NCBI GenBank assembly: GCA_022772475.1
Contig: JALEZQ010000004.1
Location: 1 to 33,870, forward strand
Direction: 5' to 3'
Origin: Bacteroidales bacterium
Lineage (GTDB): Bacteria > Bacteroidota > Bacteroidia > Bacteroidales > Bacteroidaceae
Length of the DNA: 33,870 nt
Position numbers and translations under genes: made by a program. The notes under the pieces are model-generated. The model was not told the DNA's origin and did no database searches. It saw only the letters and a program-made list of their open reading frames with translations. Positions 1 to 28,296 of this stretch are shown here, in pieces; the first letter of the stretch is position 1, and every line of letters starts with the position of its first letter.

Positions 1-378
1 AAGCACCACATGCGTGAAGATGTTGTTGATCTCGTTCTTTACCCGGATCCGGAAGTGGTTGATGGTGATGAAGTCGGGACACTCCTGAGCTGCCAGCCAC
101 TTGAAGCGGATGTCGTATCGCAACAATTCTTCGATCTTGCGGCATGATTAGGTGTTGTCCAGGTAGGCATAAAGGATGATCTTCAGCATCATCTTGGGGT
201 GGTATGCACAGCGGCCGCACTCGCGACAGAGTTTCTTGAACCTCTTCAAGTCAAGCGACTCCACAATGGCATCGACCAAGCGAACGGGGTCACCCTGCGG
301 AATTTCTTCGTCGAGGTTGACCCAAATAAACAGTTGGTCGCTGTTACTGTAGTTTTTTGTATGCAACTTTGTGGACAT
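1..378 (-). pseudogene. IS1182-family transposase, N-terminal part with internal stop, runs off the left edge
   Basis: The reading frame starts with MSTKLHTKNYSNSDQLF and continues through the DUF772-like N-terminal region (PVRLVDAIVESLDL, HPKMMLKIILYAYLDNT) typical of IS1182-type transposases of Bacteroidetes. A TAA at 148-150 interrupts it; beyond the stop the same frame continues with family sequence (SCRKIEELLRYDIRF, then KWLAAQECPDFITINHF) to the window edge. In relatives the residue after LDNT is Tyr, so a single TAC/TAT to TAA change explains the break. An upstream ATG at 421-423 is in frame, but the promoter (-7 at 399-406) lies downstream of it, so the ATG at 376-378 is preferred. 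The DDE catalytic part lies outside the window. Confidence is high for the family and good for the broken state, unless TAA is a sequencing error. Confidence 0.8.
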
Positions 379-398
379 TGTTATTTGTTTATATGTCT

Positions 399-428
399 CA
401 AAGTTACGAAAACTTTCTGACATGGCAA
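399..428 (-). promoter_or_regulatory. Bacteroidetes-type promoter of the left transposase
   Basis: On the minus strand TTG (426-428) is followed after 19 bp by TAACTTTG (399-406), matching the Bacteroidetes TTG/TAnnTTTG consensus. It lies about 20 bp upstream of the ATG at 376-378 and decides that start. Confidence 0.65.
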
Positions 429-429
429 A

Positions 430-453
430 GCCCCTGCTTGTGAAAGTCGGGGC
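430..453. terminator. Hairpin in the insertion-sequence leader
   Basis: GCCCCTGCTT (430-439) and AAGTCGGGGC (444-453) pair with two mismatches around a 4-nt loop. A near-identical hairpin precedes the partial gene at the right edge (33783-33806). It sits just upstream of the transposase promoter, where it could block transcription entering the element from outside. That role is inferred. Confidence 0.5.
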
Positions 454-493
454 TATTTTCCATTGATTATGCTGGCTTCTGCGATAAAATCAT

Positions 494-501
494 TATCTTT
501 G
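494..501 (+). promoter_or_regulatory. Possible -7 element before the AAA ATPase remnant
   Basis: TATCTTTG matches the -7 consensus TAnnTTTG and lies 43 bp before the remnant ATG at 544. No clear TTG is found at the expected distance, so the call is weak. A palindrome TGATAC-AA-GTATCA follows at about 513-526. Confidence 0.35.
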
Positions 502-543
502 GGGTGTAAAATATGATACAAGTATCAAAAATAGTACTCTAAT

Positions 544-609
544 ATGATATTTGAACGTAAGAGATACTTGGATGAACTTATCGCAGGACGTGGAAACTTT
601 TTGCAATAG
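544..609 (+). pseudogene. AAA ATPase (AAA_14/DUF4143 type) N-terminal remnant, 21 codons
   Basis: ATG at 544 opens MIFERKRYLDELIAGRGN and ends in TAG at 607-609. This matches the usual opening of Bacteroidales ATPases in which a similar stretch is followed by a Walker A motif such as GIRRCGKS. Here the match stops after GRGN and the next bases begin the 121-bp repeat at 610, so the gene seems to have been cut by arrival of that repeat or by a deletion ending there. No rest of the gene is seen downstream. A different gene of the same broad class is intact at 20223-21368. The match is from memory and short, so confidence is moderate. Confidence 0.5.
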
Positions 610-868
610 GTGAGGCCGCGTAGTAGTGCCATGTCCATTGACGTGGCACTCAGTACGCGTCGCGGCGTCGGCCGCGACACCTATTATTTGCCGCAAAAAC
701 GCGGCAGGGACGCGAGTGGCACGTCAATGGGTGAGACCGCGTAGTAGTGCCATGTCCATTGACGTGGCACTCAGCACGCGTCGCGGCGTTGGCCGCGACA
801 CCTATTCTTTTCCGCAAAAAAACGCGGCTGCGCCGCGAGTGGCACGTCAATGGACATGCCACTACTAC
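610..868. repeat. Two tandem 121-123 bp units with 32-bp inverted arms
   Basis: Unit 1 is 610-730 and unit 2 is 731-853, nearly identical (about ten differences). The outer arms 620-651 and 837-868 are inverted copies of each other over 32 bp with two mismatches. Each unit also folds locally, for example GTCGCGGC (659-666) with GCCGCGAC (671-678) and GCCGC/GCGGC flanking an A-rich loop. A long frame across it (626-1198) is only an open frame through repeats. The layout resembles a MITE or other non-autonomous element that duplicated in tandem. No transposase is encoded. Confidence 0.75.
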
Positions 869-1256
869 ATAAAAGCTGCGCCCCCGGTGACGGTGTGTCA
901 TAATGGTCAATCTGCTGCGTTGCTATCGTCTTCGGGCTTGGTCATGTACTTCAGTACACTCCCGGCGCCCTCATCCTCAGCGCCTTGCATCTTAACCATT
1001 CTGACGCACCTTCGCGTGTGCGTCAAAATTTGCATTTTGACACACCCTCTGCGCCTCAAACCGCGTTGTAGCCTCTTCGCAGCGAGTATGTATCTACGTT
1101 ACAAAAACGAAATCTGTAGTACCCACGCGAAAATCGCCAAAACGCAACGACATGACGTGCAAATTAATATCGGAAAACAGACGTTGAAATTGGGATAGGA
1201 GGCGCCGTCGCTCAAGCATCTTCATTATGAAACACCCTCATCCTGCATCGCCGCAT
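869..1256. other. Gene-free stretch with hairpins and an IS-end-like sequence
   Basis: No convincing gene is seen. It holds two overlapping hairpins: TGACGCAC (1002-1009) with GTGCGTCA (1018-1025), and GTCAAAAT (1022-1029) with ATTTTGAC (1034-1041). Both use GTCA at 1022-1025, so they exclude each other. The stretch 1034-1049 (ATTTTGACACACCCTC) is the reverse complement, with one mismatch, of the insertion-sequence end at 33731-33746. A dispersed repeat follows at 1111-1168. Confidence 0.5.
1111..1168 (+). repeat. Dispersed intergenic repeat, copy A
   Basis: Starts AATCTGTAGTACCCACGCGA and aligns by eye with 11027-11083 at about 80% identity. The shared core also includes AAAACGCAAC and CATGAC. 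Neither copy is in a gene. Confidence 0.6.
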
Positions 1257-2018
1257 TCATAGATCTTTATCGTTCCCACTCGAATACACGCTTCGGACGA
1301 CGAGACTGGCCAAGGTCAGGCCGAAGATGCCCGTGGCGTGCATCAGTGAGCCGTTAAAGGTGGCGTCGGCCTCGTCTGTGGGTATGTTGCGTAGCAGTTC
1401 GTCGCTATAGACGCACTTGAATTTCTTTGCAGGAAAGGTGCCGGCCTTCTTGAACCGCCGCCGCAACGACGCGGCCAGCGGGCAGCCCTTGACCTTCCAA
1501 AACTCAGTGACGGCAATCCGCGACGGGTCCATCTTGAGGGCTGCGCCCATAGAGGAGAGTAGGGTGGCCCGGGTGCGGCAGGCCAGCAGAATGAGGGCGG
1601 CCTTGTCGGCCATGCTGTCGATGGCATCAATCACATAGTCGTAACTGTCCAGGGCGAAGCGCTCGGCATCGTCGGCGGTGAAGCGCTCGGCCATCGCCAC
1701 GATGTTGGCCTGCGGGTTGATGTCGAGCAGACGCTCACGCATGACCTCCACTTTGTGGCGCCCCACGGTGGACGTGCTGGCGGGGCACTGCCGGTTGATG
1801 TTGCTGTAGGCCACGATGTCGGGATCGACCATGGTGAGGTGGCCGACGCCTGTGCGGACGAGGGCTTCGGCGCACCAACTGCCCACGCCGCCCACGCCGA
1901 AGAGGATGACGCGCGTCTGCCGCAGGCGCTCCATACCGTCGCTGCCAAAGAGGCGCTCCGTGCGGCTGAAGGTCTCGGCGGGCTCTGTGGTGGAAAGATG
2001 GCGTTGTAAATCAGACAT
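1257..2018 (-). CDS. tcdA: tRNA threonylcarbamoyladenosine dehydratase (TcdA/YgdL, ThiF-MoeB-like)
   Basis: A cytoplasmic E1-like enzyme that uses ATP to cyclise N6-threonylcarbamoyladenosine at position 37 of ANN-decoding tRNAs. At 253 residues it is close to the family length (E. coli TcdA is 268). The N-terminal part has a nucleotide-binding GVGGVG motif (residues 41-46), followed by VDPD and SNINRQ, the ThiF/MoeB ATP and Mg contacts, and DAIDSM near residue 135. The FSRTERLFG opening is typical of TcdA rather than MoeB or ThiF, and no ubiquitin-like partner gene is nearby. The ATG at 2016-2018 lies about 35 bp downstream of the tsf terminator, so transcription may start in that gap or come from read-through. 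Confidence 0.88.
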   Translation of the reverse strand: MSDLQRHLSTTEPAETFSRTERLFGSDGMERLRQTRVILFGVGGVGSWCAEALVRTGVGHLTMVDPDIVAYSNINRQCPASTSTVGRHKVEVMRERLLDINPQANIVAMAERFTADDAERFALDSYDYVIDAIDSMADKAALILLACRTRATLLSSMGAALKMDPSRIAVTEFWKVKGCPLAASLRRRFKKAGTFPAKKFKCVYSDELLRNIPTDEADATFNGSLMHATGIFGLTLASLVVRSVYSSGNDKDL

Positions 2019-2051
2019 AAGGACTGCTCTTGTAAAAGGGATTTATAGAAC

Positions 2052-2082
2052 AAGCCCAGAGAACGTTACGAACTCTGGGCTT
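2052..2082 (-). terminator. Terminator of the rplM-tsf block
   Basis: AAGCCCAGAG (2052-2061) and CTCTGGGCTT (2073-2082) form a perfect 10-bp stem with an 11-nt loop, starting 34 bp after the tsf stop. The T-run after it is weak (TTGTTCTAT), so some read-through to tcdA is possible. Confidence 0.75.
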
Positions 2083-2115
2083 GCGGAGATATAGTTGAAA
2101 GTTGGTGTCGGTGGA

Positions 2116-2940
2116 TTACTCGGCACGGAGCGTAAAGCGCTTGAAGGCGGTCACGGTGCACTCCTTGTCGGCCTGCTTCAGGTAGTCAGCCACGGAAACC
2201 TTGCTGTCCTGGATGAACTCCTGGTTCAGGAGGCAAGCCTCCTTGTAGAACTTCTGCATACGGCCGTTGGCGATGCGCTCGATCATGTTCTCGGGCTTGC
2301 CCTCCTGACGAGCCTTGTCGGCAGCGATTTCATACTCTTCCTTGCGGATCTTCTCGGGAACATCCTGCTCGCAGAGCGATACGGGGTTCATGGCAGCAAC
2401 CTGCATGGCTACGGCGTGGCCGTAAGCAGGGTCAACAGCCTTGTTGAGGGCTACCATGGTGCAGAGCATGTTCTTGTTCTGGTGGTTGTAGCAAGAGATG
2501 TTGTCGCCTTCGATGGTGAGGTAGCCATCGAGTTCCATCTTCTCGCCGGTGATACCGCTGCGGTCCGTAACGGCCTCGGCAACGGTGCCGTTGCCCATGG
2601 GCAGAGCCTTTACGTCGTCGAGGGTAGCGCACTTGTTGGCTACGGCGGCGTCGAGGATGTCCTGAGCGAGCTTGATGAAGTCGGCGTTCTTGGCTACGAA
2701 GTCGGTTTCGCACTTGAGGGCGATGATGGCACCGAAGCCATTCTCAGCCTTGCAGAGCACAGCGCCTTCAGAAGCTTCGCGGTCCGAGCGCTTGGCGGCT
2801 ACGGCCTGACCCTTCTTGCGGATGATTTCTACAGCGGCTTCGATGTTGCCGTCAGCTTCGGCGAGGGCCTTCTTGCAGTCGCCCAGACCGGCGCCCGTGA
2901 GGGTACGCAGTTTTTTGATATCGTCTAATCCTACTGCCAT
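2116..2940 (-). CDS. tsf: Elongation factor Ts
   Basis: The nucleotide exchange factor that recycles EF-Tu-GDP to EF-Tu-GTP in the cytoplasm. At 274 residues it is near the E. coli length (283). The UBA-like N-terminal domain (IKKLRTLTGAGLGDCKKAL, residues 8-26) is followed by the IRKKG segment and the EF-Tu contact motif KCETDFVAKN at about residue 75. The core ends with a short C-terminal module (VADYLKQADKECTVTAFKRF). It follows rpsB as in most bacteria, but a strong terminator-like hairpin (3051-3078) lies between them and no clear promoter is seen in 2941-3050. Confidence 0.97.
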   Translation of the reverse strand: MAVGLDDIKKLRTLTGAGLGDCKKALAEADGNIEAAVEIIRKKGQAVAAKRSDREASEGAVLCKAENGFGAIIALKCETDFVAKNADFIKLAQDILDAAVANKCATLDDVKALPMGNGTVAEAVTDRSGITGEKMELDGYLTIEGDNISCYNHQNKNMLCTMVALNKAVDPAYGHAVAMQVAAMNPVSLCEQDVPEKIRKEEYEIAADKARQEGKPENMIERIANGRMQKFYKEACLLNQEFIQDSKVSVADYLKQADKECTVTAFKRFTLRAE

Positions 2941-3050
2941 TGTTGTAAGTGGTTAGGTCCGATGGGGCAGGGTCGGTATGTGGCGGCATAAGTCCACCTG
3001 CCGTCTTCTGCCATTCGGTGATGATTGATGTGTTTAGGAAAAAAAGAGAA

Positions 3051-3078
3051 ATGCGGGCGGCGGAAGTGCCGCCCGCAT
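3051..3078 (-). terminator. Strong terminator/attenuator between rpsB and tsf
   Basis: ATGCGGGCGGC (3051-3061) and GCCGCCCGCAT (3068-3078) form a perfect 11-bp GC-rich stem with a 6-nt loop. On the minus strand it is followed by TTCTCTTTTTTTCC. It begins 28 bp after the rpsB stop and should reduce transcription into tsf. Confidence 0.8.
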
Positions 3079-3105
3079 ATTTGGATGAGGTTGTGGTGCA
3101 GATTA

Positions 3106-3921
3106 TTATTCAGCCTTTGCCTCTTCAGCGGCGGGAGCCTCTTCAGCGGCGGGAGCCTCCTCTACGCGGGCTTTGGCAGCACGGCGGGGAGCCTTTTCGC
3201 CTTCGCCGGCAGCTTCGGCGTCAACCTTTTCGGCCTTGCGCTCCTGAATGCCCTCGGCGATGGCACCGCAGCAGGCGTCGAGGATAACCTCGATGCTGCT
3301 CTTGGCATCGTCATTGGCGGGGATAACGTAGTCGATGCTCTTGGGGTCAGAGTTGGTATCTACGATGCCGAATACGGGAATACCCAAACGGCGAGCCTCC
3401 TTCACGGCGATGTGCTCCTTGCATACGTCGATGACGAAGAGAGCAGCCGGAAGCTTGTTCAGGTCGGCGATGGAGCCGAGGTTCTTCTCGAGCTTGGCAC
3501 GCTGACGAGAAATCTGGAGGATTTCGCGCTTGCTGAGGTTAGAGTAGGTACCATCGTTCATGAGCTTGTCAATATTGGCCATTTTCTTGACAGCCTTGCG
3601 GATGGTGGGGAAGTTGGTGAGCATACCGCCCGGCCAGCGTTCCGTAACGTAGGGCATGGCTACCGAGGTGGCCTTGTCGGCTACGATTTCTTTGGCTTGT
3701 TTCTTAGTAGCTACGAAGAGGATCTTGCGACCCGACTTGGCCACCTGCTTCAGGGCTTCGGCAGCCTCGTCGATTTTAGCGACCGTCTTGTGGAGGTCGA
3801 TGATGTGAATGCCATTGCGCTCCATGAAGATGTAGGGAGCCATGGCGGGATTCCACTTACGCTTGAGGTGACCGAAGTGGCAGCCGGCCTCGAGCAGGGT
3901 TTCAAAATTCGTTCTAGACAT
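3106..3921 (-). CDS. rpsB: 30S ribosomal protein S2
   Basis: A structural protein of the small ribosomal subunit, needed for S1 binding. The S2 core begins MSRTNFETLLEAGCHFGHLK and shows KWNPAMAPYIF, the KTVAKIDEA helix and FVIDVCKEHIAVKEARRLG, with NSDPKSIDYVIPANDDA near residue 205. The frame is open 45 codons further upstream, but the S2 N-terminus fixes the start at 3921. At 271 residues it exceeds the usual 240 because of an Ala/Glu-rich tail. That tail is encoded by 18-bp direct repeats around 3117-3152 (GCCTCTTCAGCGGCGGGA on the plus strand), which may vary in number between strains. Confidence 0.97.
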   Translation of the reverse strand: MSRTNFETLLEAGCHFGHLKRKWNPAMAPYIFMERNGIHIIDLHKTVAKIDEAAEALKQVAKSGRKILFVATKKQAKEIVADKATSVAMPYVTERWPGGMLTNFPTIRKAVKKMANIDKLMNDGTYSNLSKREILQISRQRAKLEKNLGSIADLNKLPAALFVIDVCKEHIAVKEARRLGIPVFGIVDTNSDPKSIDYVIPANDDAKSSIEVILDACCGAIAEGIQERKAEKVDAEAAGEGEKAPRRAAKARVEEAPAAEEAPAAEEAKAE

Positions 3922-4165: not shown

Positions 4166-4552
4166 TTAACGTTTGCTGAACTGGAAGCGACGACGTGCTT
4201 TGGGACGACCGGGCTTTTTGCGTTCCACAGCGCGCGAGTCGCGGGTTACAAAGCCTTCAGCGCGGAGAGCCTTCTTGTCGTCGGCGTTAACCTTGACCAG
4301 GGCGCGGGCGATGGCGAGGCGGAGAGCCTGGCTCTGGCCCGTGAAGCCACCACCTTCGAGGTTGACCTTGATGTCGTACTTCTCGGCAACGTCCAGGAGG
4401 GCGAGGGGCTGCTTAACCACATACTGAAGGATGGGCGAGGGGAAATATTCCGTAAGGTCGCGCTTGTTGATGGTGATTTTGCCCGTACCTTCGGTCATAT
4501 AAATGCGGGCCACAGAACTTTTGCGGCGGCCCAGTGCGTTGATTACTTCCAT
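4166..4552 (-). CDS. rpsI: 30S ribosomal protein S9
   Basis: A small-subunit protein whose C-terminal tail reaches the P-site tRNA. It is 128 residues, the normal size. It opens MEVINALGRRKSSVARIY, carries GGGFTGQSQALRLAIARAL in the middle, and ends with the basic tail GRPKARRRFQFSKR, whose last Lys-Arg is the conserved tRNA-contacting end. Its start is 9 bp after the rplM stop, so the two are one transcription unit, as in most bacteria. Confidence 0.97.
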   Translation of the reverse strand: MEVINALGRRKSSVARIYMTEGTGKITINKRDLTEYFPSPILQYVVKQPLALLDVAEKYDIKVNLEGGGFTGQSQALRLAIARALVKVNADDKKALRAEGFVTRDSRAVERKKPGRPKARRRFQFSKR

Positions 4553-4561
4553 ATCTGCGTA

Positions 4562-5023
4562 TTATTTGTACAAGTTAATGTCAATCACCTTGGGGCTCTG
4601 GGCTTCGTGCTTGTGCTCGCTACCCTCGTAAACGTAGAGGTTGCTGAGCTGCTGTGCGCCAAGACGGTTCTTGGGGAGCATACCCTTGACTACACGATGG
4701 AGAAGGCGGTCTGCGCCGTTCTTCTTGGCCATGATGCTGGCGGGCGTGTGTTCGCGCTGGCCGCCGGGATAGCCGGTGTAGGTGAGGTAAACGCGGTCCG
4801 TCCACTTGTTGCCGGTGAGGCGCACCTTGTCGGCGTTGATGATGATGACGTTGTCGCCGCAGTCCACGTGGGGGGTGTAGTTGGGCTTGTACTTGCCACG
4901 GAGCAACTTGGCGACCTTGGTGCAGAGGCGACCGAGAACCTGATCGGTGGCGTCAACGACAACCCACTCTTTCTTGGCAGTCTCCTTGTTGGCAGAAATG
5001 GTCTTGTAACTTAAAGTGTCCAC
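4562..5023 (-). CDS. rplM: 50S ribosomal protein L13
   Basis: An early-assembly protein of the large ribosomal subunit. It is 153 residues and shows WVVVDATDQVLGRLCTKVAK, the GDNVIIINADKVRLTGNKW core, YTGYPGG and RVVKGMLPKNRLG, all standard L13 blocks. It is first in the block rplM-rpsI-rpsB-tsf. A consensus promoter at 5171-5201 gives a leader of about 140 nt, which can fold and may carry an autoregulatory site. Confidence 0.97.
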   Translation of the reverse strand: MDTLSYKTISANKETAKKEWVVVDATDQVLGRLCTKVAKLLRGKYKPNYTPHVDCGDNVIIINADKVRLTGNKWTDRVYLTYTGYPGGQREHTPASIMAKKNGADRLLHRVVKGMLPKNRLGAQQLSNLYVYEGSEHKHEAQSPKVIDINLYK

Positions 5024-5163
5024 TCTTGATTTGTTTTAATAAATGTGTAACTACTAATGATTTATTCTCTCGCACGGCGCTATCCCGACCACCTGCTCCG
5101 GCCAATGAAGACAGGCTATCGACGCCGCACGTCGCAGGCCTTTTGGGCCCGCTTGATAATAAT
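5024..5163 (-). promoter_or_regulatory. rplM mRNA leader with hairpins, candidate autoregulatory leader
   Basis: On the minus strand GCGGGCC-CAAAA-GGCCTGC (7 bp, one G-T pair) is followed by CGACG-TGCGG-CGTCG (5 bp). L13 leaders are known in other phyla; equivalence here is inferred from position and length only. Confidence 0.4.
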
Positions 5164-5170
5164 CGGCGTG

Positions 5171-5201
5171 CAAAAGTACGCATTTCCCTTGGAATGAGCA
5201 A
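5171..5201 (-). promoter_or_regulatory. Promoter of the rplM-rpsI-rpsB-tsf block
   Basis: On the minus strand TTG (5199-5201) is followed after 20 bp by TACTTTTG (5171-5178), a full match to the Bacteroidetes consensus. Confidence 0.75.
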
Positions 5202-11173: not shown

Positions 11174-11247
<74 letters not shown>

Positions 11248-11253
11248 AAAAGT

Positions 11254-11285
11254 TATGGTCCGCACTGCATGTTGTGCGGACCATA
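11254..11285 (-). terminator. Perfect 12-bp hairpin between the two tRNA genes
   Basis: TATGGTCCGCAC (11254-11265) and GTGCGGACCATA (11274-11285) with an 8-nt loop. On the minus strand ACTTTTC follows, so it could end tRNA-Thr transcription. Alternatively it may be a processing signal in a shared precursor, since no separate tRNA-Pro promoter is seen in the short gap. Confidence 0.65.
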
Positions 11286-11301
11286 GCCACTTGTTATTTT
11301 G

Positions 11302-11374
11302 AGCCTCTTGTCGGACTCGAACCAACGACCCCGAGATTACAAATCACGTGCTCTACCAACTGAGCTAAAGAGGC
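11302..11374 (-). tRNA. tRNA-Thr (anticodon TGT)
   Basis: A 73-nt cloverleaf on the minus strand: acceptor GCCTCTT/AAGAGGC, D-stem GCTC/GAGC, anticodon loop TTTGTAA (TGT), T-arm GTTGG-TTCGAGT-CCGAC, discriminator T, no encoded CCA. The anticodon stem CGTGA/TCTCG has a T-T mismatch at the middle pair (29-41). It decodes ACA and probably other Thr codons. Confidence 0.96.
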
Positions 11375-11487
11375 GGGTGGGTAAGCTCTCTGCATCGCGC
11401 CGCTACAACTTTCTACCTTTGCTGCGGTCAAGCCCTGGAGGATTTGAAAGGAGCTGGCCGTGCAGCACTTACCCATAAATTCGAGTG

Positions 11488-25829: not shown

Positions 25830-26609
25830 ATGAAAATGCAGACTTTTTTTCGCCGGCGTCCCCATCTTCTCCGTCACAGCCCCCGTACACGCCGGTGGGT
25901 GATGGCCGTCGTGGCCATCGTGGTGCTGGGCGCCGCCCTGCCCGCCGCGGCACAGGTCGGCGAAGCGCGCCGCACCATATCGCTCGGCTTCAGCGGCGGC
26001 ACGGTGATGAACAATGTCACCTTCGACCCCACCATCAAGCAGAAGATGCACACGGGGCCCACCATGGGCCTCACCGTCCGCTTTGTGTCGGAGAAGTATT
26101 TCAAAACCCTCTGCGCCCTGCAGATGGAGGTCAACTACGCCCGCTTGGGGTGGACCGAGGACATCCGCAGCAGCGCCGACCAGCCCCTGCCCGACACCTA
26201 CAGCCGCCATATGGACTACCTGCGCATACCGCTGCTGGCGCGCCTGTCGTGGGGCTACGAGCGTCGCGGCTTCTCCGCCGCCTTCATCGCCGGTCCCGAG
26301 TTTGGCTACCTGTTGAGCGAAAAGAGCGAGCGTAGCGCCGAGTGGACGCTCGATGCCGAAGGCCTGCCCGATCGTCCGAACGGCATGTCGGCACAGTATG
26401 ACATGCCCGTTGAGCATCGCTTCGACTATGCCATCACCGGCGGTCTCTCGCTCGAGATAGCAACCGGCATAGGCCGTTTCTCGCTGGACGGCCGCTATAC
26501 CTACGGTCTGGCCGACCTCTTCAGCAACGGCAAGAAAGACGTCTTCTCCCGCTCGAACCACAGCACCATCACGGTGAAACTGTCCTACCTCTTTGACGTG
26601 AGGAAGTAG
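25830..26609 (+). CDS. porT: PorT-like outer-membrane beta-barrel protein
   Basis: An outer-membrane barrel of the OMP_b-brl family, 259 residues. It has the PorT-like pattern GFSGGTVMNNVTFDP, LTVRFVSEKYFKTLCALQMEVNYARLGW, MDYLRIPLLARLSW and FIAGPEFGYLLSEK. In Porphyromonas gingivalis PorT is needed for type IX secretion. Whether this protein does that or belongs to a wider barrel group cannot be settled, since no other T9SS core gene (porK-N, sov) is in the window. The first ATG gives an Arg-rich stretch before the signal peptide; starting at Met25 (25902) gives a more normal signal, MAVVAIVVLGAALPAAAQ. The 3-bp gap after the LysM gene implies translational coupling. Confidence 0.7.
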   Translation: MKMQTFFRRRPHLLRHSPRTRRWVMAVVAIVVLGAALPAAAQVGEARRTISLGFSGGTVMNNVTFDPTIKQKMHTGPTMGLTVRFVSEKYFKTLCALQMEVNYARLGWTEDIRSSADQPLPDTYSRHMDYLRIPLLARLSWGYERRGFSAAFIAGPEFGYLLSEKSERSAEWTLDAEGLPDRPNGMSAQYDMPVEHRFDYAITGGLSLEIATGIGRFSLDGRYTYGLADLFSNGKKDVFSRSNHSTITVKLSYLFDVRK

Positions 26610-26639
26610 CGGAGCATACACATATTATATATAAGGAAC

Positions 26640-26688
26640 ATTCGGGCGAGGAAGATAGGCTTCCCTCGCCCGAATTTTTCTTTTTCCC
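26640..26688 (+). terminator. Terminator after the PorT-like gene
   Basis: ATTCGGGCGAGG (26640-26651) pairs with CCTCGCCCGAAT (26664-26675), extended by AAG/CTT with a bulge, then TTTTTCTTTTTCCC. Confidence 0.9.
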
Positions 26689-26714
26689 TTGCTTGAGAAT
26701 TTCCACAGCCCGCG

Positions 26715-26942
26715 GGCACTCGAAGTGCCAGCCGCGGGTACTCGAAGTGCCGGCCTGTGGCACTCGAAGTGCCAGCCGCGGGTACTCGAAGTGCCAGCCT
26801 GTGGCACTCGAAGTGCCGGCCCTTGGCAATCGTCTTGCCAGCCCTTGGCAATCGTCTTGCCAGCCTGTGGGAATAATATTCCCAGCCTGTGGGAATAAAG
26901 TTCCCAGCCTGTGGGAATAATGTTCCCAACGGCGTTGGGAAT
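26715..26942. repeat. Array of ten 22-bp units, each a 15-nt hairpin plus 7-nt spacer
   Basis: Hairpins start at 26715, 26737, 26759, 26781, 26803, 26825, 26847, 26869, 26891 and 26913, exactly 22 bp apart. Units 1-5 are GGCACT or GGTACT, loop CGA, AGTGCC. Units 6-7 are GGCAAT-CGT-CTTGCC (5-bp stem). Units 8-10 are GGGAAT, a 3-nt loop, ATTCCC or GTTCCC. Spacers are A/G-GCC followed by TGT, GCG or CTT. A half unit GGGAAT at 26937 pairs with the end of unit 10 (TTCCCAAC-GGC-GTTGGGAA). The array lies between the convergent terminators at 26640-26688 and 26951-26983. Open frames across it are an effect of the 22-nt period and are not taken as genes. There are no cas genes and no unique spacers, so it is not CRISPR. 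Confidence 0.9.
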
Positions 26943-26950
26943 ATCAAAAA

Positions 26951-26983
26951 GGCCGGTCACACCGTGAGATGGTGCAACCGGCC
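26951..26983 (-). terminator. Terminator after metY
   Basis: GGCCGGT (26951-26957) and ACCGGCC (26977-26983) form a 7-bp GC stem with further pairing inside (CACC/GGTG). On the minus strand TTTTTGATATT follows. It lies 30 bp after the metY stop. Confidence 0.75.
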
Positions 26984-27012
26984 GCTTGTCTAACCTAAAT
27001 CTATATCCAAAA

Positions 27013-28296
27013 TTATGCGAAAGCCTGCTCGAGGTCGTCGATGATGTCGTCGATGTGCTCCGTGCCGATGCTCAGACGGATGGTCGAAGGCGTGATGTGC
27101 TGCTCGGCCAGTTCCTGCGGCGACATCTGCGAGTGGGTGGTGGTGGCCGGGTGGATGACCAGGCTCTTGACGTCGGCTACGTTGGCCAGCAGCGAGAAGA
27201 TCTGCAGACGGTCGATGAAGCGCCAAGCGGCCTCCTGTCCGCCCTTTATCTCGAAGGTGAAGATGCTGCCGCCGTCGTTGGGGAAGTACTTCTTGTACAG
27301 CGCGTGCGAGGGATGCGAGGGCAGCGAGGGGTGGTTGACGCGCTCCACCTGCGGATGGCGGCTGAGATATTCCACGACCTTGAGCGTGTTCTCCACATGG
27401 CGCTCCACGCGGAGCGACAGCGTCTCCAGGCCTTGCAGCAGGATGAAGGCGTTGAAGGGCGAGAGCGTGGCGCCCGTGTCACGCAGCAGGACGGCACGGA
27501 TGCGGGTGACGAAGGCGGCAGCGCCGGCCACGTCGGCAAAGACGGCACCATGGTAGGAGGGGTCGGGACCGGCCAGGGTGGGGAACTTTTCGGCGTAGTT
27601 TTTCCAGGGGAAAGTGCCGCCGTCAACGATGACGCCGCCAAGGCTCGTGCCGTGGCCGCCGATGAACTTGGTGGCCGAGTGGACCACGATGTCGGCGCCG
27701 TGCTCGATGGGGCGGATGAGGTATGGCGTGCCGAAGGTGTTGTCCACGATGAGAGGTACGCCATGCCGGTGGGCCGCCTCGGCCACGGCGTCGAGGTCGG
27801 TCACGTCGCAGTTGGGGTTGCCGAAGGTCTCGACGAAGACGGCGCGCGTCTCGGGGCGGAAGGCGGCTTCGAGGGCCGCGGCGTCGTTGACGTTGACGAT
27901 GGTGTTCGTCACGCCGCGGTCGGCCAGCGTGTGCGTGATGAGGTTGAACGAGCCGCCGTAGAGATTGTCGGCCGCGATGAGGTGCGTGCCGGGCAGCAGG
28001 ATGTTCTCCAGGGCGTAGGTGATGGCGGCAGCACCGCTGGCTACGGCCAGGCCGGCCACGCCGCCCTCGAGGGCAGCCACGCGGTCCTCAAAGACGCCCT
28101 GCGTGCTGTTGGTCAGACGGCCGTAGATGTTGCCGGCGTCGCGCAGGCCGAAGCGGTCGGCAGCGTGCTGCGAATTGCGGAATACATACGACGTGGTTTG
28201 GTAGATGGGCACCGCGCGGGCGTCGGTGGCGGGGTCGGGCTGCTCTTGGCCTACATGAAGTTGGAGGGTCTCGAAGTGGAGTTTCTTTGTGCTCAT
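27013..28296 (-). CDS. metY: O-acetylhomoserine aminocarboxypropyltransferase (sulfhydrylase)
   Basis: A PLP enzyme of the Cys/Met metabolism family that joins O-acetylhomoserine with sulfide to give homocysteine. It has 427 residues, longer than cystathionine gamma-synthase (about 390) and right for MetY. PLP Lys210 is in HSATKFIGGHG; other family blocks are IYGRLTNSTQGVFEDRVAALEGG (phosphate-binding Tyr/Arg), VFVETFGNPN and VDNTFGTPYL. The N-terminus HFETLQLHVGQ is typical of MetY. It pairs with the acetyl-type MetA at 15469-16377. The gene is divergent from an Lrp/AsnC regulator, and Lrp-like boxes lie just upstream of its promoter. Confidence 0.95.
   Translation of the reverse strand: MSTKKLHFETLQLHVGQEQPDPATDARAVPIYQTTSYVFRNSQHAADRFGLRDAGNIYGRLTNSTQGVFEDRVAALEGGVAGLAVASGAAAITYALENILLPGTHLIAADNLYGGSFNLITHTLADRGVTNTIVNVNDAAALEAAFRPETRAVFVETFGNPNCDVTDLDAVAEAAHRHGVPLIVDNTFGTPYLIRPIEHGADIVVHSATKFIGGHGTSLGGVIVDGGTFPWKNYAEKFPTLAGPDPSYHGAVFADVAGAAAFVTRIRAVLLRDTGATLSPFNAFILLQGLETLSLRVERHVENTLKVVEYLSRHPQVERVNHPSLPSHPSHALYKKYFPNDGGSIFTFEIKGGQEAAWRFIDRLQIFSLLANVADVKSLVIHPATTTHSQMSPQELAEQHITPSTIRLSIGTEHIDDIIDDLEQAFA

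Follow-up and report, generated by a model that had tools for sequence, protein, structure and literature searches.

Dispersed tandem arrays of 22-bp palindromic units with REP-like features in a Bacteroidales genome

RESULTS

Layout of the array locus

The window, by which we mean the whole 33,870-nucleotide stretch of contig JALEZQ010000004.1 analyzed here, carries an array of ten 22-bp palindromic units between two convergent genes (Table 1). The downstream ORF was labeled metY and presumably encodes a protein resembling O-acetylhomoserine sulfhydrylase. A first-pass annotation of this DNA had described ten 22-bp units, and these proved real: a unit starts every 22 bp, from 26715 to 26913, and runs of at least three units arose in none of 200 mononucleotide shuffles of the window. 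The three stem blocks that it had listed are present as GGYAC/GTGCC (units 1 to 5), GGCAA/TTGCC (units 6 and 7), and GGGAA/TTCCC (units 8 to 10), as are the T-G wobbles in units 2, 4, 9, and 10, and the convergent terminators are both predicted, one per side. The proposed 6-nt arms with a 3-nt loop do form a palindrome, but a 5-bp stem enclosing five loop nucleotides is the better reading, because units 6 and 7 are unpaired at position 6 and because, across genomes, arm positions 3 and 5 covary and position 7 does not. The claim that the stems change together with pairing kept stands insofar as palindromy is retained while letters change; the window alone, however, shows only about two paired changes, since its blocks look like whole-unit duplications of a few founders. 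Elsewhere in the window, two tRNA genes and a Bacteroidales small SRP RNA gene lie consecutively on the minus strand (11174-11481).

Table 1. Features of the array locus (positions in the window)
Feature	Position	Strand	Description
Upstream flanking gene	25830..26609	+	259 aa ORF, convergent
Predicted terminator of upstream gene	26640..26682	+	Ahead of array; T tail on +
Left terminal half-unit	26701..26714	.	TTCCACAGCCCGCG
Array of ten 22-bp palindromic units	26715..26927	.	15-bp palindrome GGxAy-N5-y'Tx'CC + 7-bp spacer
Unit starts	26715, 26737, 26759, 26781, 26803, 26825, 26847, 26869, 26891, 26913		
Class B block, units 1-5	26715..26817	.	GGYAC-TCGAA-GTGCC
Class A block, units 6-7	26825..26861	.	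GGCAA-TCGTC-TTGCC
Class C block, units 8-10	26869..26927	.	GGGAA-N5-TTCCC
Right terminal half-unit	26928..26945	.	AACGGCGTTGGGAATATC
Predicted terminator of downstream gene	26946..26983	-	Ahead of array on minus strand
Downstream flanking gene	27013..28296	-	427 aa ORF, convergent

Copies and placement in the genome

Further arrays, on which the first-pass interpretation hinged, were found at about 24 loci of the same genome, nearly all of them intergenic. Compared with its own 2.38-Mb draft genome, the array DNA gave 46 matches (best other match, E = 8.9e-60), which we grouped into 24 loci, window array included; a strict count at these loci yielded 29 uninterrupted runs and 267 units. Some loci may be halves of one interrupted array, because six sit at contig ends beside IS ends (C14, C46, C48, C60, C72, and C92; the IS of C60 lies at the opposite contig end). 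The array DNA matched no plasmid or phage sequence, and the scan pattern described below matched no viral contig. Just outside arrays L009, L016, L028, and L029, and in L089, a motif like CCCGACAGCAATAA / TTATTGCTGTCCGG was seen by eye, possibly another dispersed repeat.

Three recurring arm classes, A (GGYAA), B (GGYAC), and C (GGGAA), are carried by the 24 loci. They follow the order A-B-C or C-B-A at nine loci, unbroken in seven of these. The window and L017 read B-A-C and L023 reads C-A-B, and the remaining loci lack one or more classes or show a third class in just one arm at the edge. Outward half-units border 34 of the 58 run ends in the genome, versus 894 of 20,000 random places in the window.

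The gaps that hold arrays are convergent in 19 cases, co-directional in 29, and divergent in 7, compared with 22, 70, and 35 among other gaps of at least 120 bp. The convergent excess (Fisher P = 0.019) and the divergent deficit (P = 0.035) are uncorrected and modest, and the loci are partly orthologous; the genes were called with a crude home-made caller, with ORFs overlapping the arrays at L011 and L026 and touching that at L028. This placement matches a similar gap-orientation preference reported for REPs in the available part of the source (PMC3733652). Of 22 approaches tested from a gene toward its array, 7 pass a predicted terminator, the two in the window included, and the other arrays may thus be read through.

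Insertion of an IS3-family element into the units

An IS3-family element (NF033516, 234.5 bits; cutoff, 160) abuts arrays. Both its ends were seen in L082, and both its ORFs in L192 (178-1475). The 16 IS-end copies comprise 10 no more than 76 bp from an array, 2 at array remnants, 3 elsewhere, and 1 without a visible end. Among 14 distinct end-flanks, seven lie in a full unit, and all seven (from six IS copies) have their junction at unit positions 13 to 15. The junction triplet is NCC, the last three bases of the 15-bp palindrome, as if it were duplicated; in L082, the sole copy with both ends in units, the two triplets differ (CCC and GCC). An eighth end, in L196, abuts an apparent terminal half-unit at another phase, and the ends in L190 and L202 appear to represent a single site shared by two genomes.

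In enterobacteria, the IS3-family elements IS1397 and ISKpn1 insert into REPs, according to the part of the source available to us (PMC1525189). The arrangement seen here resembles that of IS1397, ISKpn1, and IS621 in that an IS3-family target is fixed inside a palindromic intergenic unit, but phylum and palindrome are different, the target here being the NCC of the 15-bp palindrome (PMC1525189, same part).

The same layout in other genomes

A pattern scan of genome contigs with positions 3 and 5 left free recovered 57 stretches outside the own genome: 22 in the metagenome-assembled genome (MAG) of a near relative, 17 in Prevotella multiformis, and 18 others. Five of these 18 (L054, L056, L076, L077, and L084) are probably chance matches, with mostly unpaired stems. 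A three-unit model (R1) matched 12 of the 58 genomes searched in the genus, a figure that includes the own genome, the near relative, and one probable chance match (G013, locus L102), as well as 5 of 61 genomes of the family, own and one other genus member counted. Both counts are lower bounds, with up to 95 and 90 candidates per genome, respectively, scored under stricter filters. The order-wide search matched 1 of 295 genomes, a weak negative in which at most 18 candidates per genome were scored and the matches in the own genome dropped to 28, compared with 127 before. Apart from the near relative, the remaining array-bearing members of the genus held 1 to 14 model matches, against these 127. 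By DNA similarity alone, none of 40 relatives was matched.

Arrays expected in relatives were thus found in other Bacteroidales, with the same layout but other stem letters (GGTAA, GGGAG, GGAAC, GGAAA, GGTAC, and GGGAC). G1, G2, and A4 are constant across genomes together with their pairing partners, and so for the most part is the spacing; most of these letters were demanded by the search patterns. The period is not always 22: single 21-bp steps occur in G003 and G020, and a family member in G373 (L130, L134) has the period 23, with GGTAC-TCGCA-GTACC and an 8-bp spacer; a 22-bp period is therefore not obligatory. Within the open-access literature, to which our partly known-repeat-directed search was confined, subscription papers being outside its scope, we found no description of this 22-bp repeat family.

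Dyad symmetry and arm classes

Covariation was assessed on 39 units, at most four per genome, from the ten genomes found with the pattern; seven genomes found with the stem model are left out of these figures, and alignment A1, which was filtered for stem pairing, was not used. In 5,000 shuffles, Watson-Crick agreement reached on average 0.41 (maximum, 0.69) at position 3 and 0.54 (maximum, 0.74) at position 5, versus the observed 0.74 and 0.82. Position 7, left free in the pattern, was at chance (0.21 versus 0.26), and position 6 provides no covariation test because the scan pattern partly fixes it.

Since the spacer mostly begins with A and ends with T across genomes (0.82, in a both-strand profile that is symmetric by construction), it is a dyad center as much as the loop is. 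The unit then reads TGGxAy-N5-y'Tx'CCA-N5, with the mirror-image half-site TGGxAy recurring every 11 bp or so in alternating orientation, 5 bp apart. In the own genome, arm classes agree in 229 of 253 pairs across the loop and in 203 of 231 across the spacer, after dropping 14 and 7 pairs, respectively, with an unclassed arm, and class switches are about equally frequent in the two (24 of 253 and 28 of 231). Hybrid mispaired units, such as C/B, A/B, and A/C, form runs of two or three at five loci. Class agreement and hybrid units fit arrays of half-sites copied by unequal recombination better than strict selection for hairpins. The dyad is broken in some species, with pairing at position 3 in none of six units of Parabacteroides locus L032 and in 23% of 26 units of Marseille-P3684; in the own genome, 36 of 267 units are mismatched at this position beyond G-U.

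Strand bias and the case for an RNA

The first-pass annotation had seen in the preference for T-G over C-A a sign of selection on plus-strand RNA or of biased repair of paired DNA arms. The bias itself holds on the spacer strand, where G-U exceeds A-C by 53 to 20 at arm position 3 and by 61 to 5 at position 6, but the spacer strand is not tied to gene direction. When the nine loci flanked by co-directional genes are counted on the gene strand, the ratios are 9 to 13 (position 3) and 13 to 11 (position 6). The simplest cause of the asymmetry would be the copying of a few founders. Selection on plus-strand RNA thus finds little support, given the lack of a G-U excess on the gene strand, the equal switching in loop and spacer, and the recurrence of hybrids.

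More generally, the arrays might be transcribed and their hairpins might protect or process RNA, as a 3'-end stabilizer, small RNA, or sponge, with stems covarying through base pairing. This would accord with the covariation of positions 3 and 5 across genomes, the G-U excess on the spacer strand, and the 15 of 22 gene-to-array approaches that have no predicted terminator, where read-through is possible. Both strands also fold far better than shuffles (z = -10.7 for plus and -6.5 for minus); however, any tandem palindrome folds well. The gene-strand counts at co-directional loci speak against such an RNA, as does the matching of classes across the spacer as well as the loop, together with the hybrid units. 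Moreover, positions 26500-27100 matched no Rfam family at its gathering score (best, 24.6 bits versus 80), and the window array, with a predicted terminator ahead of it on each side, probably has no part in the mRNAs of its neighbors. We consider a structured RNA quite unlikely.

Unit number, constraint, and rearrangement between near relatives

The MAG of the near relative, CAMGHE (G070), has flank-matched arrays at at least 12 of the 24 loci (flank identity, 82 to 99%), and a Prevotella sp. MAG (SUG549) was matched at one locus (95.5%). When unit number was compared, as the first-pass annotation had proposed for strains, the near relative and the own genome proved to differ by whole units at several loci. 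Differences affected 21 of 497 sites of the GG/A/T/CC core, 62 of 417 loop sites, and 56 of 1,392 flank sites, with the misaligned pair L019/L085 included. A second unit pairing, which omitted that pair and has some units misphased, gave 60 of 335 for the loop and 25 of 402 for the core. The loop thus changes faster than the core, but the core changes no more slowly than the flanks, so that the evidence for selection is weak. Among the 67 pairs of the second pairing, positions 3 and 5 show 19 one-sided and 7 two-sided changes. Ongoing compensatory change between the near relatives was rejected as a reading of the latter, at least some of which stem from misphased or nonorthologous pairing (L014/L035, L023, and L024).

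These data bear on the possibility that the arrays are neutral minisatellites, in which palindromy is kept by the mutational process (slippage and template switching at quasi-palindromes) and not by selection. Whole-unit differences, block structure and hybrid units, and a core no more conserved than the flanks would all be expected of such repeats, as would the drop from 127 model matches here to 1 to 14 in the other array-bearing genomes of the genus, the near relative apart. Conversely, many genomes have GG, A, T, CC, and, for the most part, the spacing in common while loop letters drift, albeit with GG and CC demanded by the finder, and in both comparisons of near relatives, misaligned or misphased units included, the loop differs more than the core. 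Template switching would further be expected to mend position 7 as well, and this position does not agree. On balance, a neutral origin appears somewhat unlikely.

The window locus itself is rearranged in G070: the segment to the left of the array is inverted, with a breakpoint falling within the array gap, and no array is present in the 8.5 kb inspected at that place. Nor did four further genomes of the genus show an array run beside their best-matching gene. At L066, the array of G070 connects segments that are split between two contigs in the own genome. The early suggestion of a nuclease or recombination target is supported in that the array is an IS insertion target and the window locus lies at a rearrangement breakpoint.

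Absence of the array at this locus from G070 and four congeners might also be expected of a non-autonomous mobile element, MITE-like or BrickBuilt-like, in which the A-B-C composite would move as a whole with the terminal half-units as inverted repeats. The ordered composites seen at 9 of 24 loci, without interruption at 7, and the half-units at 34 of 58 run ends are in line with this. However, the five loci examined (window, L066, L021, L059, and L017), all of which differ by rearrangement, yielded neither a target-site duplication nor a clean empty site, and no common leader or tail was noticed beyond the half-units. Movement of this kind seems unlikely.

DISCUSSION

The arrays described here share much with the REP/BIME family, as far as the available parts of PMC3733652, PMC1525189, and PMC6006769 describe it: both are intergenic, palindromic, clustered, and present in many copies with subclasses within one genome, both lie mostly between convergent or co-directional genes, and both are targets of IS elements that include IS3-family members. 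A short palindrome of 20 to 40 bp, intergenic and in high copy number, is typical of REPs, and the 15-bp palindrome in its 22-bp unit lies at the short end. Site-specific IS insertion is likewise found, with seven of seven full-unit junctions at one position and the L196 half-unit differing. In contrast to REPs, the 22-bp unit has 5-bp stems and is repeated in tandem at one main period, and its letters are species-specific on a constant layout. Furthermore, the REP tetranucleotide (GTAG/GGAG or CGTC) is absent from the hairpin foot, where a variable spacer, frequently AGCCNNN, precedes GG. The 3-kb loci of the RAYT-like gene and of a second Y1 transposase gene of this genome hold no 22-bp run; as the genome is 87% complete, a further such gene may have been missed. 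As both the tag and a linked RAYT were looked for and not found, we do not file the arrays as canonical REPs. The first-pass description of the array as unlike REP/BIME is right on these two points, but the arrays resemble REPs in placement, palindromy, subclasses, and IS3 insertion. Its distinction from CRISPR is sound, given the repeated 7-bp spacers and the stems that vary by block.

The arrays as substrate of a REP-associated tyrosine transposase would explain intergenic palindromes in many copies, and a RAYT-like protein is encoded in the genome (NF047646, 66.1 bits versus a cutoff of 80; PF01797, above its cutoff). However, its gene is flanked by a different palindrome, the GTCCATTGAC repeat, neither Y1 locus has a 22-bp run, GTAG or GGAG is missing from the hairpin foot, and the RAYT-like gene of another genome of the genus, G017, has a REP of its own. 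We regard this explanation as highly improbable. The flanking palindromes belong to a second, different repeat: a 121-bp tandem with the core GTCCATTGAC occupies positions 604-853 of the window, and repeats of this type flank the RAYT-like gene (L090) and are also present in L029 and L161. In G017 (L181), the RAYT-like gene, accompanied by those REPs of its own (GGTGCGGCAGGAATGC), is embedded in frame within an ORF for a PglX-type methyltransferase (10-3702), the C-terminal part of PglX forms a separate ORF (4442-5182), and a small array of the 22-bp type follows in the next gap. That array was discarded as a RAYT link, the gene having its own REP and sitting in a split PglX gene.

Two repeats known from related bacteria were compared. 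BrickBuilt of Porphyromonas gingivalis consists of 23-nt tandem repeats, with 19 intergenic copies in ATCC 33277, as stated in the accessible text of PMC4596501. Like the arrays studied here, it is a tandem repeat of Bacteroidales that varies in unit number between strains, with predicted stem-loops and leader/tail flanks (PMC4596501, accessible text). It differs in its published consensus, AGAYCATARTATCCTCTCRTRTG, which by eye is unlike GGxAy-N5-y'Tx'CC, and in its long leader and tail, whose 12-nt TIRs resemble those of ISPg elements of the IS5 family; the word "palindrome" is absent from the text of that paper examined (PMC4596501). PINSR of Prevotella intermedia/nigrescens, present in 177 and 184 copies in two strains and judged noncoding by its authors, is likewise a dispersed intergenic repeat of a Prevotella lineage, but it is a 188-bp repeat and not a 22-bp tandem array (PMC4755523, accessible part). 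Identity with PINSR of P. intermedia or with the 22/23-bp repeats of P. gingivalis was ruled out on length and sequence.

Our preferred reading, to which we assign a probability of roughly 0.55, is that the array represents a single copy of an intergenic repeat, dispersed in Bacteroidales, that works like the REP/BIME family, as tandem DNA palindromes probably read as DNA by a dimeric protein. A palindromic unit would amplify in tandem by slippage or unequal recombination, as the differences in unit number suggest, and the same processes among tandem units would give rise to blocks A, B, and C and to hybrid units. The composites might then spread by recombination or by a putative mobile step. 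The double-stranded DNA dyad would be recognized by a candidate dimeric or oligomeric protein, of the host or a transposase, that may keep the half-sites symmetric, with the half-site letters of each species drifting along with the protein that reads them. IS elements may use the units as landing sites, as seen for one IS3 element. Possible benefits to the host would include a domain boundary, a supercoil sink between convergent genes, or a harmless landing site for IS elements. The excess of G-U over A-C on the spacer strand is not predicted by a pure dyad. Because the core is no more conserved than the flanks and terminators precede arrays in just 7 of 22 approaches, we place less confidence in the dyad reading and more in the neutral and RNA alternatives.

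It is tempting to go further and to speculate that the arrays are assembly platforms for a putative Bacteroidales DNA-binding oligomer that would bind one TGGxAy half-site per helical turn or so, in alternating orientation, and would mark or insulate regions between convergent genes. Letters 3 and 5 would coevolve with the protein, so that each species would write its own code on a fixed scaffold. This extension is tentative and, in our view, rather doubtful.

The constant insertion point of the IS3 element makes target recognition testable, and the arrays, whose unit number varies, are located at assembly breaks and at sites of rearrangement. If the REP-like reading of the arrays as DNA palindromes is correct, they would constitute a natural experiment on the upkeep of palindromic intergenic repeats without a linked RAYT, and Bacteroidales would gain a REP-like repeat class that combines a fixed geometry with species-specific letters.
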